IMG/VR virus record: IMGVR_UViG_3300012928_000049 | Coordinates: 1 to 22,365 of that record | Length of the DNA: 22,365 nt | Source: a virus | Strand: one strand, 5' to 3' | In this document: positions 1,068 to 9,383 of the stretch, one piece after another | How positions within the stretch are numbered: the first letter of the stretch is position 1 | Layout of the letters: each line of letters opens with the position of its first letter | Program-made: the position numbers and the translations under genes | The notes under the pieces: generated by a model | What the model was told of the DNA's origin: nothing | Databases searched by the model: none | What the model saw: the letters and a program-made list of their open reading frames with translations, nothing else

Positions 1068-3479
1068 TCATCCACACTTTGCATAGCCGCAATCTGTACA
1101 AGTAGCGCAGCCATCTTGATAAATCATTCCAGCAGAGTCACATTCTGGACAAGTCTTATCCGAAGCCTCTGTGCCATCCTGAATATAATTCTTTAAAATT
1201 CTAGCAACACAACGGGTAAACGAGAACATTGAACTTTCCTTGTCCTTCTGTAGTTGCTCTACCATAAATCTCACTTCTGCTCCGTGGCGAAGTCCAAGTG
1301 AAATCATTCTTGTAAACGCAGAGTTGTTTGGATTGTCAAACACTCTAACTACGTCCTTTATAACACCGTCTTCTCCGAAAGTCAAGTCATATCTATTATC
1401 TTTTGTCTTGAAAGAATTTTTTCTTAAAGTGCCTGATGTGTGCTTCTTTGGAATCTCGATTAAACTTGACTCTCCACCAAGAACCTCGTAAGGCTTACCG
1501 TCCATCTTTCCAATAAGAATAGTCCAAGGCTTACCCTGAATCGTTGTGTGATGAATATCACATTCTAAGTCTTCTGGACGTTTTGGTGCTGAACGCTGTG
1601 GAAAGTCCTCTGTTTGAGCTTCCGTATTCGTAACCAAAACACCTGAGCGTGAACCGTCAACATAAACTGTGATACCCTTCAAGCCTCGCTTCCAACCTTC
1701 TCGGTAAAGTCGTTCAACTACTGCTGGCTCTGTACCTGCTGGTAGGTTGATAGTTGATGAGATAGCATGATCAATAGAATTCTGAATAGCTTCTTGAATC
1801 TCTACTCTCTTCATCCAGTCAATCTGATCTGATTCAACAAAAAAGTCTGGCAGTTCTTGACCTGGGTTTTGTGACAACCAGTCTTGTGCATTGTGATGGA
1901 AGACTTTGAATTCTTTCCAACCGTCACCCAACTCGTCCACAAAGTCTGGTTCAATGTTTGTTTCATCGTGCGACAACTTACGTCGTCTAACGTAAGAGTT
2001 TCTGAACACTGGCTCTAAACCCGAACTGGTCTGTGACATAATAGAAACTGAGCCAGTTGGAGCATTTGTCAAGATAGAAATGTTTCTTCTGCCGTGAGTT
2101 GCCATCTGATCCTGCATTTCTTGAGGGAGCCTCTGGATAAAAGCATTGCCTCGCTCCTTACCCCAGTTGAATATTGGAAAGGTTCCTCTTTCTGTAGCTA
2201 GATTTAAAGATTCTCCATAAGCAGTGTTGCGAAGTGTCTCATAAATGCCAGTGATGATGGTAATGGCTTCGCCGCTATCGTAAGCAAGATTCATTCTTGC
2301 GAGGGCGTCTGCCAAGCCGTGAGTTCCAAGACCCGTTCTTCTACCGTCTGCTGCTGCTGTCTTTAGTTTCTCCCAAAGATGAACTTCGTCTGGCGTATCA
2401 GCAGCTTCAAGAATCTTTTGCAACTTTTCAAGTTCTAACTCAACCAAGTCGTCTGAAAGCCTCATTGCTGTGGAGACTGTCTCTGTAAACTTCTGAAAGT
2501 TGAATGTTGCCTGCTCTGTAAAAGCGTTCTCAACAAAGTTCTTTAGGTTCACTGAGATAAGTCGGCAGGAGTCATAGGCTGAAAGGGGAATCTCTGCACA
2601 AGGGTTTGTGCAAATGGTAGCGAAGCCCTCTTCCTTGTATTCGTTTGCTGGCAGATTATCACAGATGTTATCCCACATAAGGATTCCTGGCTCTGCTGTC
2701 TCTGTTGCAGACTGGACAATCTGGTCCCAAACTTCTCTAGCCTTTACTTCCTGTGTGGTAGTCGGGTTGTCACTACCAATGGGGAAGTGTAAGTTATAAG
2801 TTTCATCAGCTTCTACGGCTCGCATAAAGTCATTAGTAATCTTTACTGAAACATTGGCACCTGTAACTTTCGTCAAGTCGTGCTTCATCTTGACGAACTC
2901 TGCGATGTCTGGATGTCGAACATCCATAGAGATCATTAGAGCGCCTCGTCTGCCGTTCTGACCAATCATACTACAAACATAAGAATAAAAGTCTGCAAAC
3001 GACCAAGCGCCTGTAGTGGTGCCAGCGGAGTTATTGACGATGCTTCCGTCTGGTCTAAGTTCTGATAAGTCAAGACCAACACCACAGCGTCTCTTGAACA
3101 GGTTGGCGAGGTCACGACCCGAGTTGATAATGGAAGAAACATTATCCTCTGGTGAAGCAACTACTACACAGTTGGATAGTGAAACATTTACAAAGTTGTT
3201 TCCAATGCCCATCATTGGAGACCCTTGAGGGACAATATATTTAAAATTGTCAAGATAATCAAAAATCTTATCTTCTGTCAGGGCACGAGGACCGCCAAAC
3301 TTTGTTTCAATTCTCGCAAATTCTGATGCAAGACGTTTGTGCATGTCTCTCGGTGTAAGCTCCTGAAAGTTGCCTTCTCTATCCTTTAGGCAGTATTTTG
3401 TCATAAAGACGTTTGTCGCTAATTCGTCGCCTTGGAAGTAATCTAAGGTTGCCTTCCTAACCTGCTTTTCTGTATACAT
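1068..3479 (-). CDS. nrdJ: Adenosylcobalamin-dependent (class II) ribonucleotide reductase NrdJ
   Basis: This 803-residue protein reduces ribonucleotides to deoxyribonucleotides using a thiyl radical generated from coenzyme B12, so it needs neither oxygen nor a second subunit. The radical loop NPCAEIP is at 292-298 with Cys294. The redox pair is Cys104 (SLSNC) and Cys305 (DSCRLISVNL). The 11-residue gap between Cys294 and Cys305 equals that in Thermotoga NrdJ (322 and 333). The C-terminus carries six cysteines (777, 780, 791, 794, 797, 802) in the zinc-ribbon/redox tail ending CGYAKCG that re-reduces the active site. The N-terminal ATLDYFQGDELA is also class II-like. No ATP-cone domain and no intein is evident. 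The start overlaps the helicase stop (TAATG) behind AAGGAG. With thyX nearby it forms a dNTP supply unit. Confidence 0.95.
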   Translation of the reverse strand: MYTEKQVRKATLDYFQGDELATNVFMTKYCLKDREGNFQELTPRDMHKRLASEFARIETKFGGPRALTEDKIFDYLDNFKYIVPQGSPMMGIGNNFVNVSLSNCVVVASPEDNVSSIINSGRDLANLFKRRCGVGLDLSELRPDGSIVNNSAGTTTGAWSFADFYSYVCSMIGQNGRRGALMISMDVRHPDIAEFVKMKHDLTKVTGANVSVKITNDFMRAVEADETYNLHFPIGSDNPTTTQEVKAREVWDQIVQSATETAEPGILMWDNICDNLPANEYKEEGFATICTNPCAEIPLSAYDSCRLISVNLKNFVENAFTEQATFNFQKFTETVSTAMRLSDDLVELELEKLQKILEAADTPDEVHLWEKLKTAAADGRRTGLGTHGLADALARMNLAYDSGEAITIITGIYETLRNTAYGESLNLATERGTFPIFNWGKERGNAFIQRLPQEMQDQMATHGRRNISILTNAPTGSVSIMSQTSSGLEPVFRNSYVRRRKLSHDETNIEPDFVDELGDGWKEFKVFHHNAQDWLSQNPGQELPDFFVESDQIDWMKRVEIQEAIQNSIDHAISSTINLPAGTEPAVVERLYREGWKRGLKGITVYVDGSRSGVLVTNTEAQTEDFPQRSAPKRPEDLECDIHHTTIQGKPWTILIGKMDGKPYEVLGGESSLIEIPKKHTSGTLRKNSFKTKDNRYDLTFGEDGVIKDVVRVFDNPNNSAFTRMISLGLRHGAEVRFMVEQLQKDKESSMFSFTRCVARILKNYIQDGTEASDKTCPECDSAGMIYQDGCATCTDCGYAKCG

Positions 3480-4917: not shown

Positions 4918-4947
4918 AAGATAACACAACTCTCTATGAATTGTCAA
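4918..4947 (-). promoter_or_regulatory. Extended -10 sigma70 promoter for helicase-nrdJ
   Basis: TTGACA at 4947-4942 lies within the last codons of the exonuclease gene. An 18-base spacer ends in TGT, followed by TATCTT (4923-4918), which matches four of six -10 positions and has the TGn extension. The expected start near 4911 leaves a 20-base leader containing AGGAAA before the helicase ATG at 4891. The geometry is the same as that of the promoter at 1024-1053. Confidence 0.7.
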
Positions 4948-5905
4948 CACAAATTCTTCTAAAGATCGCATAAAGATCTGTGAAGTTGATAGTTCCAAAT
5001 CCATCGTAAGTCATCATCTTATCCACTTCAGTTTTGTTGAATTCGAACTCGAAGTTATCAAGCGTGAATCGAACCTTCTGCTTGCCCTGAATAGAGATTA
5101 GTGGGAAGTATAGTTGCATCATTTTATAGTTTTGTTCTATGATGTCCACTGAGTCTACAATTCCGTCGTGAACCTTGAGAGGCTTCTCTACTTGTTCACA
5201 GGCTTCTACAATGTCATCTAATGTGTAATCTCGTGATTCAGATAGGAAAGGAAACCTTCTTGCGATGGTTGATAGACCAACGCCAGGGACGCCTGGGAGG
5301 TTGTCTGACTTATCTCCAGCAATAGCCCTTGCAAGTGCAAAGTTTCTAGGATGAATCCCAAACTGCTCTACCACTCTTGGCAAGTTCAATGTTTCCTTCT
5401 GAATAGGTCTGTGAACAATCGTCTCATCATCGCAAAGCTGATAAAAGTCTTTATCGCTTGAAACGATTATCTTATGCCAGCCTTTATAGTTGTTATCTTG
5501 AACAACTAGGGAGATTAGGTCATCTGCTTCCACTGAATCGAGAACAAGTTGAATGACTGGTGTTTCATTTAGAAGCTCCATCAGTCTGACCTGTTGCCAA
5601 ATCTTGTTGTCCCTTTCTTCACTCTCGTTTAGATTCCTGTTTGAACGATTCAAGCGAATAGGCTTGCGACCATCCTTGTAGGTCTTAACCATTGAACGAC
5701 GTTTTCTTGAACCATCTGCACCATCCCAACAAACAACAATCTGGTCTGGCTTTATTTCTCTTGATAGCTTTTGTAGCGTCTTGAAGAAGCCCTTGACTCC
5801 TCCGATGGGAGCGCCGTTGGTTGAGATGCTTGGGTCTACTATGTAAGAACGATAAAAGTTATTCGTTCCGTCGATGACCATTAGTTTTTTCTTTTTTGCC
5901 GTCAT
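4934..5905 (-). CDS. 5'-3' exonuclease / RNase H (FEN/PIN family)
   Basis: A 323-residue flap-endonuclease-type nuclease that would remove RNA primers and 5' flaps during lagging-strand maturation. The metal ligands of the PIN-like domain are visible: Asp12 (VIDGTN), Asp61 (CWDG), the EADD cluster at 126-129, Asp151 and Asp153 (SSDKDF), then Asp198 and Asp201 in the helix-three-turn-helix GDKSDNLPGVPGVG (197-210). It corresponds to T4 RNase H or T5 FEN and to the N-terminal domain of DNA polymerase I, which the polymerase in this window lacks. It lies downstream of a terminator with an embedded promoter (5918-5967); GGAGAG precedes the ATG. Gene-local features look ordinary. Confidence 0.93.
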   Translation of the reverse strand: MTAKKKKLMVIDGTNNFYRSYIVDPSISTNGAPIGGVKGFFKTLQKLSREIKPDQIVVCWDGADGSRKRRSMVKTYKDGRKPIRLNRSNRNLNESEERDNKIWQQVRLMELLNETPVIQLVLDSVEADDLISLVVQDNNYKGWHKIIVSSDKDFYQLCDDETIVHRPIQKETLNLPRVVEQFGIHPRNFALARAIAGDKSDNLPGVPGVGLSTIARRFPFLSESRDYTLDDIVEACEQVEKPLKVHDGIVDSVDIIEQNYKMMQLYFPLISIQGKQKVRFTLDNFEFEFNKTEVDKMMTYDGFGTINFTDLYAIFRRICVDNS

Positions 5906-5917
5906 TGTCTCTCCAAT

Positions 5918-5957
5918 AAAAAACCCCTAGTTGACATCATACTATCAAACTAGGGGT
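5918..5957 (-). terminator. Intrinsic terminator after uvsX
   Basis: On the minus strand ACCCCTAGTT (5957-5948) pairs with AACTAGGGGT (5932-5923), a perfect 10-bp stem. The 15-base loop region allows about two more pairs past a bulge. It is followed by TTTTTT (5923-5918). It lies 24 bases after the uvsX stop and 13 bases before the exonuclease start. Confidence 0.9.
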
Positions 5958-5967
5958 CGTTTGTCAA
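5939..5967 (-). promoter_or_regulatory. Promoter nested in the uvsX terminator, driving the exonuclease
   Basis: TTGACA at 5967-5962, a 17-base spacer ending in TGA, then TAGTAT (5944-5939); TATGAT (5941-5936) is an alternative -10 with a 20-base spacer. The spacer is the 5' arm of the terminator hairpin and the -10 is its loop, so a transcript starting near 5932 would contain only the 3' arm and escape termination. The leader to the exonuclease ATG would be about 27 bases and contains GGAGAG. Confidence 0.75.
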
Positions 5968-5980
5968 GAAGAAAATTTAT

Positions 5981-7102
5981 TTATTCCTGAACTTCATCGT
6001 CCTCGGAATCATAAAAATCTTCTGCCTTACCTTCTCTATTCTTGAACTTCATAATAATGTCTTCGTCCATAATAGAGAAAACGCTTTGACGAAAGGAGTC
6101 ATCCTGAAGTTTATCAATCCAGTTCTTCCTCTGAAACTTTTCTTCAGTTCCATCATCCTTTACAAGCGCATACCATGCGCCTGATTGTTTCAGCCTCTCC
6201 GAACGAGAGATAGCATCAAACCAACTCTCTTCGTCTTGAACCCCATAGAGACCATTACCCCACAAGATTTGAAACTGACAGTTTCTACCTGTTGATCCGA
6301 AGCGAGACTTCTCCAACTTCACTCTTGCAGTAGAGCCGATTCTAAAACCATTCTCGTCTGTGACAAACGATGCCTTGGCTTTAGGTCTTGTCAGCCAGAT
6401 GCGAAGTGAGTAAGCATACTGCGCCGCCTTACCACCTGGGGTGATGTAAGGAGTTGTCATTGCCTCGGAAGGCGACCTAGTAATGTTGGTCTTCAACTGA
6501 TTTAGAATAACCAGTGAAGCATCCTTGTTCGCAATAGGGACAGTCAACTTTGGTAAACCCTTTGATAAGATTCTTGGCTTTACAGCCATCGTTGACTGAG
6601 GATTGTAATCACTCTCAAGGTCTGAGATTGACGGAGTGAAAGCCAAAGAGTCCCAGATAAATAACCACTGGTTATCAATGCTCAATAAATCCTCAATAGT
6701 CTCCAAGACAAACTCTACAGACTCAGCTTGAATGTAAGTGAATCTCTCTAAGTCGCAGTTGGCTCTCTCCAGAAAGGAAGAATCTAGTGCAGACTCAGAA
6801 TCAAAGTAAACCACATCAATGCCCATCTTCTGTGCATTAGCAGCAATGCCTGCTGCCATGTAAGATTTACCTGAACCTTCCAAACCTGCAATCTCAGTGA
6901 TCTTGCCCACTGGAATTCCTGCCATCTTGCCTGTGCAAATGATAGAGTCCAGCCAACGAGAACCTGTAGGAATCCACTGCTTTACATCAGTTGGATTATC
7001 GTCTTTCAACGAAAAAGCGACATCTCTGCCAGCCTTTTTGTTTATCAACTTTTGGATGTCTTCCATAGACATCTTTCCAGTTGTTTTCTTGTTCTTTGCC
7101 AT
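5981..7102 (-). CDS. uvsX: RecA-like recombinase, UvsX type
   Basis: A 373-residue strand-exchange ATPase that would form filaments on single-stranded DNA for recombination-dependent replication and repair. Walker A is GLEGSGKS at 73-80, preceded by GIPVGKITEIAG as in RecA/UvsX. The MAW-equivalent segment YFDSESALD (99-107) corresponds to RecA YIDAEHALD with a typical UvsX His-to-Ser change. Walker B is WLFIWDSLAF (146-155), and loop regions contain VILNQLKTNI and TPGGKAAQY. The acidic C-terminus (EDFYDSEDDEVQE) is typical of phage recombinases that interact with single-strand binding protein. It follows the gp32-like gene, separated by a terminator, and ends at another terminator. AGGAG precedes the ATG by about six bases. 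No dedicated promoter was found, so read-through from the ssb transcript is likely. Confidence 0.93.
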   Translation of the reverse strand: MAKNKKTTGKMSMEDIQKLINKKAGRDVAFSLKDDNPTDVKQWIPTGSRWLDSIICTGKMAGIPVGKITEIAGLEGSGKSYMAAGIAANAQKMGIDVVYFDSESALDSSFLERANCDLERFTYIQAESVEFVLETIEDLLSIDNQWLFIWDSLAFTPSISDLESDYNPQSTMAVKPRILSKGLPKLTVPIANKDASLVILNQLKTNITRSPSEAMTTPYITPGGKAAQYAYSLRIWLTRPKAKASFVTDENGFRIGSTARVKLEKSRFGSTGRNCQFQILWGNGLYGVQDEESWFDAISRSERLKQSGAWYALVKDDGTEEKFQRKNWIDKLQDDSFRQSVFSIMDEDIIMKFKNREGKAEDFYDSEDDEVQE

Positions 7103-8531: not shown

Positions 8532-9383
8532 TTATTCCTCTGGAAAAGTTTGAATTTTAGAAGTCCAAATCTCCACAAACGCAAAGTTTGTTTCGTATTT
8601 GGTAGAGTGAATCTGATAGGATGCTCCCTGAAGGTCGCTCATCTTCTCTTTCACCTGCCTGTTTACATTTTTTAGTACTCTGTAGTCCTCCTCTAGCATT
8701 TTTTCGTTTACAGCATAATAATAGCAACGATTGTCTTCGTTGTCAATAGGAAAAAATCTTTTTTCTTCTCCAGAATCAAAATCTACCATTCCAATAGTGT
8801 AAATTCTGGTAAAGTCGCTGTTCTCTATCTTATTATCGAGAACTGGCTTGGTTCTATTGAATACGTTGACCATGTGGTACGTGTATCCAATCATTTCGTT
8901 TATCTTCTCATAATAATTGCTTGGTGTCAAGGCATTTTCTAAAATTTCTTCAACTGCGGGGTTGCTGACCAAGCAAAGTGAGCGAAACACGCCCGAACGA
9001 GCGTACTCCTGTAATACGTTGTAACACACTCTGTCTTTTAGATAAGATTCTCGACCGAGGAGTTCGTGATCTGGCTTGACATAGAGTACGTCTACAGTAA
9101 ACTTCTTGTTTAGGAACTTCAGCACCTGCAACGAAGCACCTGAGATGTTTCCCGAACCTGCCATGATAAAAAGACATTCCCCTGTGTCGGGCATCTGATC
9201 GACAAACCGAGTCATTCTTATCTGCTTTTTATCATACTCTTCGTGAGATGATCTTTTTGTGATACCAAGAGTCTTAGATGTCTTTTTCAAACCCTCATCA
9301 ATAGTAAAAACGCTATACTGAGGGTATTTCTCAAAGTATTTGGCGATTTTACACCCTGCGCTGCCTAAGCCTACTACATTCAT
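8532..9383 (-). CDS. Divergent FtsZ/tubulin-like GTPase-fold protein
   Basis: 283 residues that follow the FtsZ/tubulin order from end to end. The T1-like glycine loop VVGLGSAGCKIA (3-14) comes first, then a second strand ending in TIDEG (27-31), where FtsZ has NTDAQ. LFIMAGSGNISGAS (71-84) lies where FtsZ has VFxxAGMGGGTGTGA. VDVLYVKPDHELLGRE (97-112) parallels the FtsZ T5 segment TVAVVTKPFxFEGR. SLCLVSNPAVEEIL parallels SLITIPNDKLLKVL. ENSDF (187-191) sits at the T7 loop NxDFAD, and a helix plus paired strands (230-277) ends like the FtsZ C-terminal domain. The T4 signature is not canonical and the second catalytic Asp of T7 is Arg193, so nucleotide hydrolysis may be weak or absent. No C-terminal conserved tail peptide is seen. 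The start forms ATGA with the polymerase stop. A role in positioning replication or interfering with host division is inference. Confidence 0.7.
   Translation of the reverse strand: MNVVGLGSAGCKIAKYFEKYPQYSVFTIDEGLKKTSKTLGITKRSSHEEYDKKQIRMTRFVDQMPDTGECLFIMAGSGNISGASLQVLKFLNKKFTVDVLYVKPDHELLGRESYLKDRVCYNVLQEYARSGVFRSLCLVSNPAVEEILENALTPSNYYEKINEMIGYTYHMVNVFNRTKPVLDNKIENSDFTRIYTIGMVDFDSGEEKRFFPIDNEDNRCYYYAVNEKMLEEDYRVLKNVNRQVKEKMSDLQGASYQIHSTKYETNFAFVEIWTSKIQTFPEE

Follow-up and report, generated by a model that had tools for sequence, protein, structure and literature searches.

In the window analysed here, a 22,365-base IMG/VR fragment of a marine phage, a promoter is nested within the hairpin of a terminator at the junction between a UvsX-like recombinase gene and an exonuclease gene, and this geometry is conserved in the window lineage. 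Judging from the sequence, we consider it probable (roughly 0.78) that the element is a bifunctional terminator-promoter, a compact unit that insulates and restarts transcription. Termination, initiation and insulation are the functions that we infer for it; such a fused element would represent a natural and very compact insulator, resetting expression between neighbouring genes without the use of extra bases. The element and its flanking genes are composed of the following features:

5981-7102, minus strand: upstream gene, UvsX-like recombinase (phrog_97, E 3.5e-55)
5967-5962, minus strand: -35 hexamer TTGACA, identical in the relatives L003, L005, L006 and L007
5961-5945, minus strand: 17-nt spacer, which holds the 5' arm of the hairpin and the extended TG (5947-5946)
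5956-5924, minus strand: terminator hairpin of 13 bp (9 bp, a bulge and 4 bp) with a 6-nt loop
5944-5939, minus strand: -10 hexamer TAGTAT; relatives read TAATAT, TATTAT or TAGTAT
5932, minus strand: predicted transcription start, the seventh base past the -10, at a C/A step; placed from the spacing
5923-5918, minus strand: T6 tract 3' of the hairpin, T6 or more in relatives
5914-5911, minus strand: GGAG, putative ribosome-binding site of the exonuclease gene, read from the sequence
4934-5905, minus strand: downstream gene, exonuclease (phrog_107, E 6.7e-27)

The two gene identities had been proposed in a preliminary description of this DNA, and both are supported by the family matches. The gap between the two genes is only 75 nt long and houses the terminator, the promoter and the ribosome-binding site, with promoter and stem-loop combined within one short intergenic motif. 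In the outer stem of 9 bp, 5956-5948 pairs with 5932-5924; a bulged T at 5947 follows, and the inner stem of 4 bp pairs 5946-5943 with 5936-5933 around the loop at 5942-5937. The hairpin is G+C-rich and is directly followed by the T-run, as in an intrinsic terminator, and its energy of -18 kcal/mol (z -6.25) was equalled by none of 200 shuffled sequences. The terminator is one-directional, because the plus strand carries no T-run after the repeat. The promoter matches the sigma-70 consensus at 10 of 12 positions, with a spacer of 17 and an extended TG; this match is unremarkable on its own, because 50 promoter-like sites were found in the window scan versus 34.5 expected.

The outer 3' arm begins exactly at the predicted start, 5932, and a new RNA would therefore lack the 5' arm and would not terminate itself. 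RNA entering from upstream folds at -24.3, and RNA from 5932 onward folds at -4.9 kcal/mol (z -1.4) and forms no stable hairpin, in agreement with the preliminary description, whose sequence and coordinates for the nested element were also correct. Its underlying logic, namely that upstream RNA contains the full hairpin and promoter-derived RNA only the 3' arm, holds for the window itself, for five relatives and for numerous phage elements unrelated to it. Two of its details need to be refined. The loop had been equated with the -10; four bases of the -10 do lie in the loop, but the first two belong to the inner stem. The 5' arm had been equated with the spacer; the arm does lie inside the spacer, but the latter also contains five bases upstream of the arm. 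The preliminary description further suggested that a polymerase sitting at the promoter might alter termination upstream.

We envisage that transcripts arriving from uvsX would copy both arms, form the hairpin and be released at the T-tract, and that a host holoenzyme of the sigma-70 type, as the consensus match suggests, would start exonuclease transcripts at approximately 5932. The new RNA, without the 5' arm, would pass its own T-tract without terminating. The element would thus uncouple the expression of two replication-recombination genes and set the level of the second anew.

In its tail sheath and UvsX proteins, the window shares approximately 31-35% identity with Microcystis phage Mel-JY01 and with an uncultured phage, and Rhodothermus phage RM378 is more distant (27% for the sheath); these identities place the window in a distant T4-like myovirus. 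Because a search of named phages with the junction DNA gave no match, the element was traced through uvsX relatives, and 80 viral contigs containing one were fetched. L001, which duplicates the window stretch, was excluded from the surveys, and L002, in which uvsX runs past the end of the contig, was left out of the junction count. The five closest relatives with a readable junction (L003-L007) all keep the element at the uvsX 3' junction, and a scan with a specific motif returned six contigs, the only new one being L087, in which the element is flanked by uvsX and exonuclease genes. When the window was aligned with L003, L005, L006 and L007 (L004 was omitted, its junction being the same as that of L003), 15 pairs, including two outer pairs, were found to be kept in 75 of 75 cells, and the -35, the extended TG, the -10 pattern TANTAT, the 17-nt spacing and the T-run were kept in all five sequences. 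The covariation signal is weak: it consists of one compensatory pair (C-G to U-A in L003) across five sequences, a result matched by 106 of 500 shuffles. The window-type element occurs as a single copy in the 22 kb window, and the two relatives that were searched whole, G001 (75 kb) and G002 (32 kb), contain one copy each.

Several other signals in the window can be placed beside this element. Two promoters with repeats in the spacer (at 8746 and 4947) folded no better than shuffled sequences. The latter promoter (4947-4918, minus strand; TTGACA-18-TATCTT) precedes a helicase-like gene (4891-3479), and its -35 lies within the final codons of the exonuclease gene. At 1053-1010 (minus strand), a promoter TTGACA-18-TATAGT lies upstream of an 85-aa ORF (994-737); its -10 falls within an inverted repeat, TGTGC...GCACA, that has no T-tract, and the arms of the counterpart in L003 (14083) read TGTGT...ACACA, which is a two-sided change. 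A strong plain terminator at 7144-7125 (minus strand), GGGGGGTCGCAAGACCCCCT, separates the gene for a single-strand binding protein from uvsX and has no promoter inside.

The nested design also occurs well outside this lineage. Viral contigs were scanned twice, for TTGACA-17-TATAAT or TTGACA-16-TATAAT followed 6-16 nt later by the start of a T6, with at least 219 distinct matches in at least 239 loci; among the matches listed, 33 of 219 contain a strong hairpin, with the -10 inside it and the T-run directly at its end, versus a mean of 0.67 (maximum 3 in 100 runs) when the spacers of the listed matches were shuffled. These nested elements precede at least 20 downstream gene families, and the stop codon of the gene before them mostly falls no more than 13 nt from the -35. 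These include phrog_30607, a family of unknown function (seven loci), a DnaJ-like protein, named from its sequence without a family match (four loci), exonuclease phrog_255 (four loci), ATP-dependent DNA ligase phrog_114 (two loci), DNA polymerase phrog_262 and clamp loader phrog_168; the naming was done by scanning one member each of six families. A search with L165 gave partial matches only, in unrelated phages and, where annotated, under chaperone- or protease-like genes, and a stretch of L269 lying outside its element had no match among named phages. The same nested design, in unrelated sequences, thus appears to precede many different phage genes, and its recurrence in this form suggests selection for the geometry itself.

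With the 17-nt spacer, 30 of 121 matches listed from viral contigs are nested versus 0 of 118 from genome contigs of bacteria and archaea (Fisher p 2.5e-10), these being proportions per listed match, not per base, and Clostridia being abundant in the genome-contig sample. Another 289 genomes, all from a single bacterial class, gave four matches, two of them in the genome that led there, and none was nested by eye. Chance was also assessed among 402 distinct terminator hairpins taken from 1.58 Mb of related loci, overlapping pieces included. A promoter matching at 9 of 12 positions or better, its -10 no more than 5 nt from the centre of the hairpin, was present in 12 of them versus a mean of 3.0 (sd 1.6, maximum 8 in 100 runs) after shuffling of the upstream 30 bases and the loop. 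At least three of those twelve (L119, L110 and L053/L055) look like chance occurrences with weak hexamers.

A further viral scan, in which the T-run was placed 17-47 nt past the -10, yielded at least 116 distinct matches; among the 116 listed, 16 have a terminator. The hairpin encloses the -10 in three of these 16; in ten, the 5' arm starts at a position ranging from 3 nt ahead of the end of the -10 to 2 nt past it, and the predicted start lies some bases inside that arm; in the remaining three listed cases, the entire hairpin is downstream of the start. The second of these arrangements, with the hairpin beginning at the end of the -10 and the start site inside its 5' arm, is seen in L626, L638, L543, L552, L569, L573, L586, L603, L604 and L616. 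In both main classes, the new RNA would lack the base of the stem. These numbers are small, and they suggest as an organising principle that the start lies inside the hairpin, such that the terminator would be complete only for RNA coming from upstream.

One can extend this reading and propose that nested terminator-promoters are a general phage design that follows the start-inside-hairpin rule and also acts as a relay, in which the polymerase, having just released its RNA at the T-tract, would slide back a few tens of bp to the adjacent promoter and re-initiate. A promoter inside the terminator would be the nearest possible neighbour for such a recycled polymerase, and upstream transcription, if the relay exists, would feed the downstream gene with a new and separate mRNA and not with readthrough. 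We regard this extended proposal as doubtful. The nested pattern is something that annotation pipelines for phage genomes could look for.

The state of the uvsX 3' junction in other lineages bears on a simpler explanation, according to which only the terminator is functional, the promoter being a remnant or a weak match, and exonuclease expression depends on readthrough. The scan of 79 readable loci and the window gave 11 nested junctions, 62 of 80 with a terminator only, and 7 with neither, and on a tree of 61 different UvsX proteins (9 nested) the nested state needs at least three gains or losses. At this same junction, promoters lie in hairpins that differ in sequence from that of the window in L021/L022 (TTGACA-17-TATGAT), in L062 and L073 (TTGACT-17-TATTCT) and in L038 (TTGATC-17-TATCAT). 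In L048, TTGACA and the hairpin remain and the -10 is missing. Since L048 lacks the -10 and most relatives have only the terminator, the two halves are separable, with the terminator as the half that stays, and the promoter half is dispensable, because most relatives do without it. The related junctions of L021 (2163-2240, -10 present) and L048 (4754-4830, -10 absent), both with TTGACA and the hairpin, may capture a promoter in the course of being gained or lost.

The plain terminators of the 62 relatives, the loss of the -10 in L048 and the commonness of chance promoter-like matches in the window all fit a terminator that works alone. Such an explanation, however, leaves the -35, the extended TG, the TANTAT pattern and the 17-nt spacing, unchanged in five aligned sequences, without a reason, and it does not predict that the promoter recurs in hairpins of unrelated sequence far above the shuffled controls. 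We therefore consider it improbable, and we prefer the fused terminator-promoter for the window element.

Among named T4-like phages, RB49 has a nested element of its own (3201-3174, minus strand), which separates topoisomerase gene 39 from the small ORF that follows. It consists of TTGACA-16-TATAAT; a hairpin with a 13-bp stem has TATAAT as its loop, and the T-rich run TTTTC comes next. The promoter is therefore nested in a 13-bp hairpin with a T-rich run, as in the window, but the sequence is unrelated, the spacer is 16, the T-run is interrupted and the genes are different. A 65-nt stretch of RB49 containing this site is present in 58 phage records, and the GEC-3S record annotates a promoter (3175-3202) and a terminator (3164-3191) at the RB49-type site; because these annotations overlap, one instance of the nested geometry has already been recorded. 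A scan of nine named T4-like genomes with a strict TTTTT pattern found no nested case in T4, KVP40, nt-1, Aeh1, S-PM2, P-SSM2, Syn9 or HTVC008M, and it missed the case in RB49, the ninth genome, because the T-run there is interrupted.

RB49 also provides the argument for a different function of the repeat. Among its early promoters (L104, L145-L150), a perfect hairpin lies in the spacer in 8 of 53, e.g., GGGGATCGGTGATCCCC, far above shuffles, and perfect hairpins with stems of 6 bp or more surround the -10 in 16 of 53 versus a shuffled mean of 0.9. Among the strong -10 hairpins listed, most are without a T-tract, so repeats at the -10 can occur without termination, and the inverted repeat of the window might accordingly be a protein-binding operator over the -10 that regulates the promoter and terminates nothing. 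The T-tract, however, is present on one side only, the stem sequences vary among lineages while the pairing is kept, which is a poor fit to one conserved protein site, and relatives carry plain terminators at the same place; we thus find the operator highly improbable and retain the terminator-promoter. We also considered, and rejected, hairpin-bearing promoters as a trait of the entire window lineage, as 27 promoters of the window and its near relatives gave 0 hairpins in the spacer and 2 around the -10; the corresponding counts for other marine loci were 1 and 2 of 118. These counts leave out promoters without a ribosome-binding-like site and a start codon, and the bulged hairpin of the window itself escapes the perfect-stem test.

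Of the known systems, the closest named concept to the window element is the PeSL (Arbiol 2010; Comeau 2014). The term denotes composite promoter-terminators in T4-like phages, and among the texts that cite it (PMC4503421, PMC3950731) a high PeSL density is mentioned. The window element likewise fuses a sigma-70-like promoter and a stem-loop into one short intergenic cassette in a T4-like phage. PeSLs reportedly occur as many motif copies per genome and are said to be located where genomes vary, amid small non-core ORFs; early expression and recombination that swaps genes are further traits ascribed to them. The window element is distinguished by its copy number, being single in the 22 kb window and in each of G001 and G002, and by its place, between the core genes uvsX and exonuclease. 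A strict PeSL cassette, whose main role would be that of a repeated recombination site for shuffling genes, agrees with the composite promoter-terminator in a T4-like phage (an idea present in the title of Comeau 2014) but has very little chance of being correct here, given the single copies, the position between uvsX and the exonuclease gene, and window-clade promoters that are not enriched in hairpins.

An intrinsic terminator followed by a separate sigma-70 promoter would use the same two signals with the same order of effect; RB49 offers a tandem example, with three promoters approximately 52 nt beyond a hairpin centre. In such tandem arrangements the signals are separate, whereas in the window element they share the same bases. 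Searches of openly licensed PMC papers, and passages of PMC7698491, PMC10134795 and PMC2988021, gave no description of a -10 inside a terminator loop.

Finally, the nested elements can be compared with the recycling of RNA polymerase. E. coli polymerase is reported to stay mostly on the DNA after intrinsic termination, to diffuse and to be able to restart at a nearby promoter (PMC6978380, PMC6978322, PMC11347151), as was shown in vitro on engineered templates (PMC6978380, PMC6978322); one of them also reports in-cell evidence for antisense starts and suggests that recycled polymerase might feed sense promoters located close to a terminator (PMC6978322). A promoter that adjoins a terminator, as in the window, could be reached by a polymerase that stays on the DNA after releasing its RNA. 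The nested elements described here constitute a natural test set for the question, which comes from single-molecule work, of whether a terminating RNA polymerase is re-used at the adjacent promoter.
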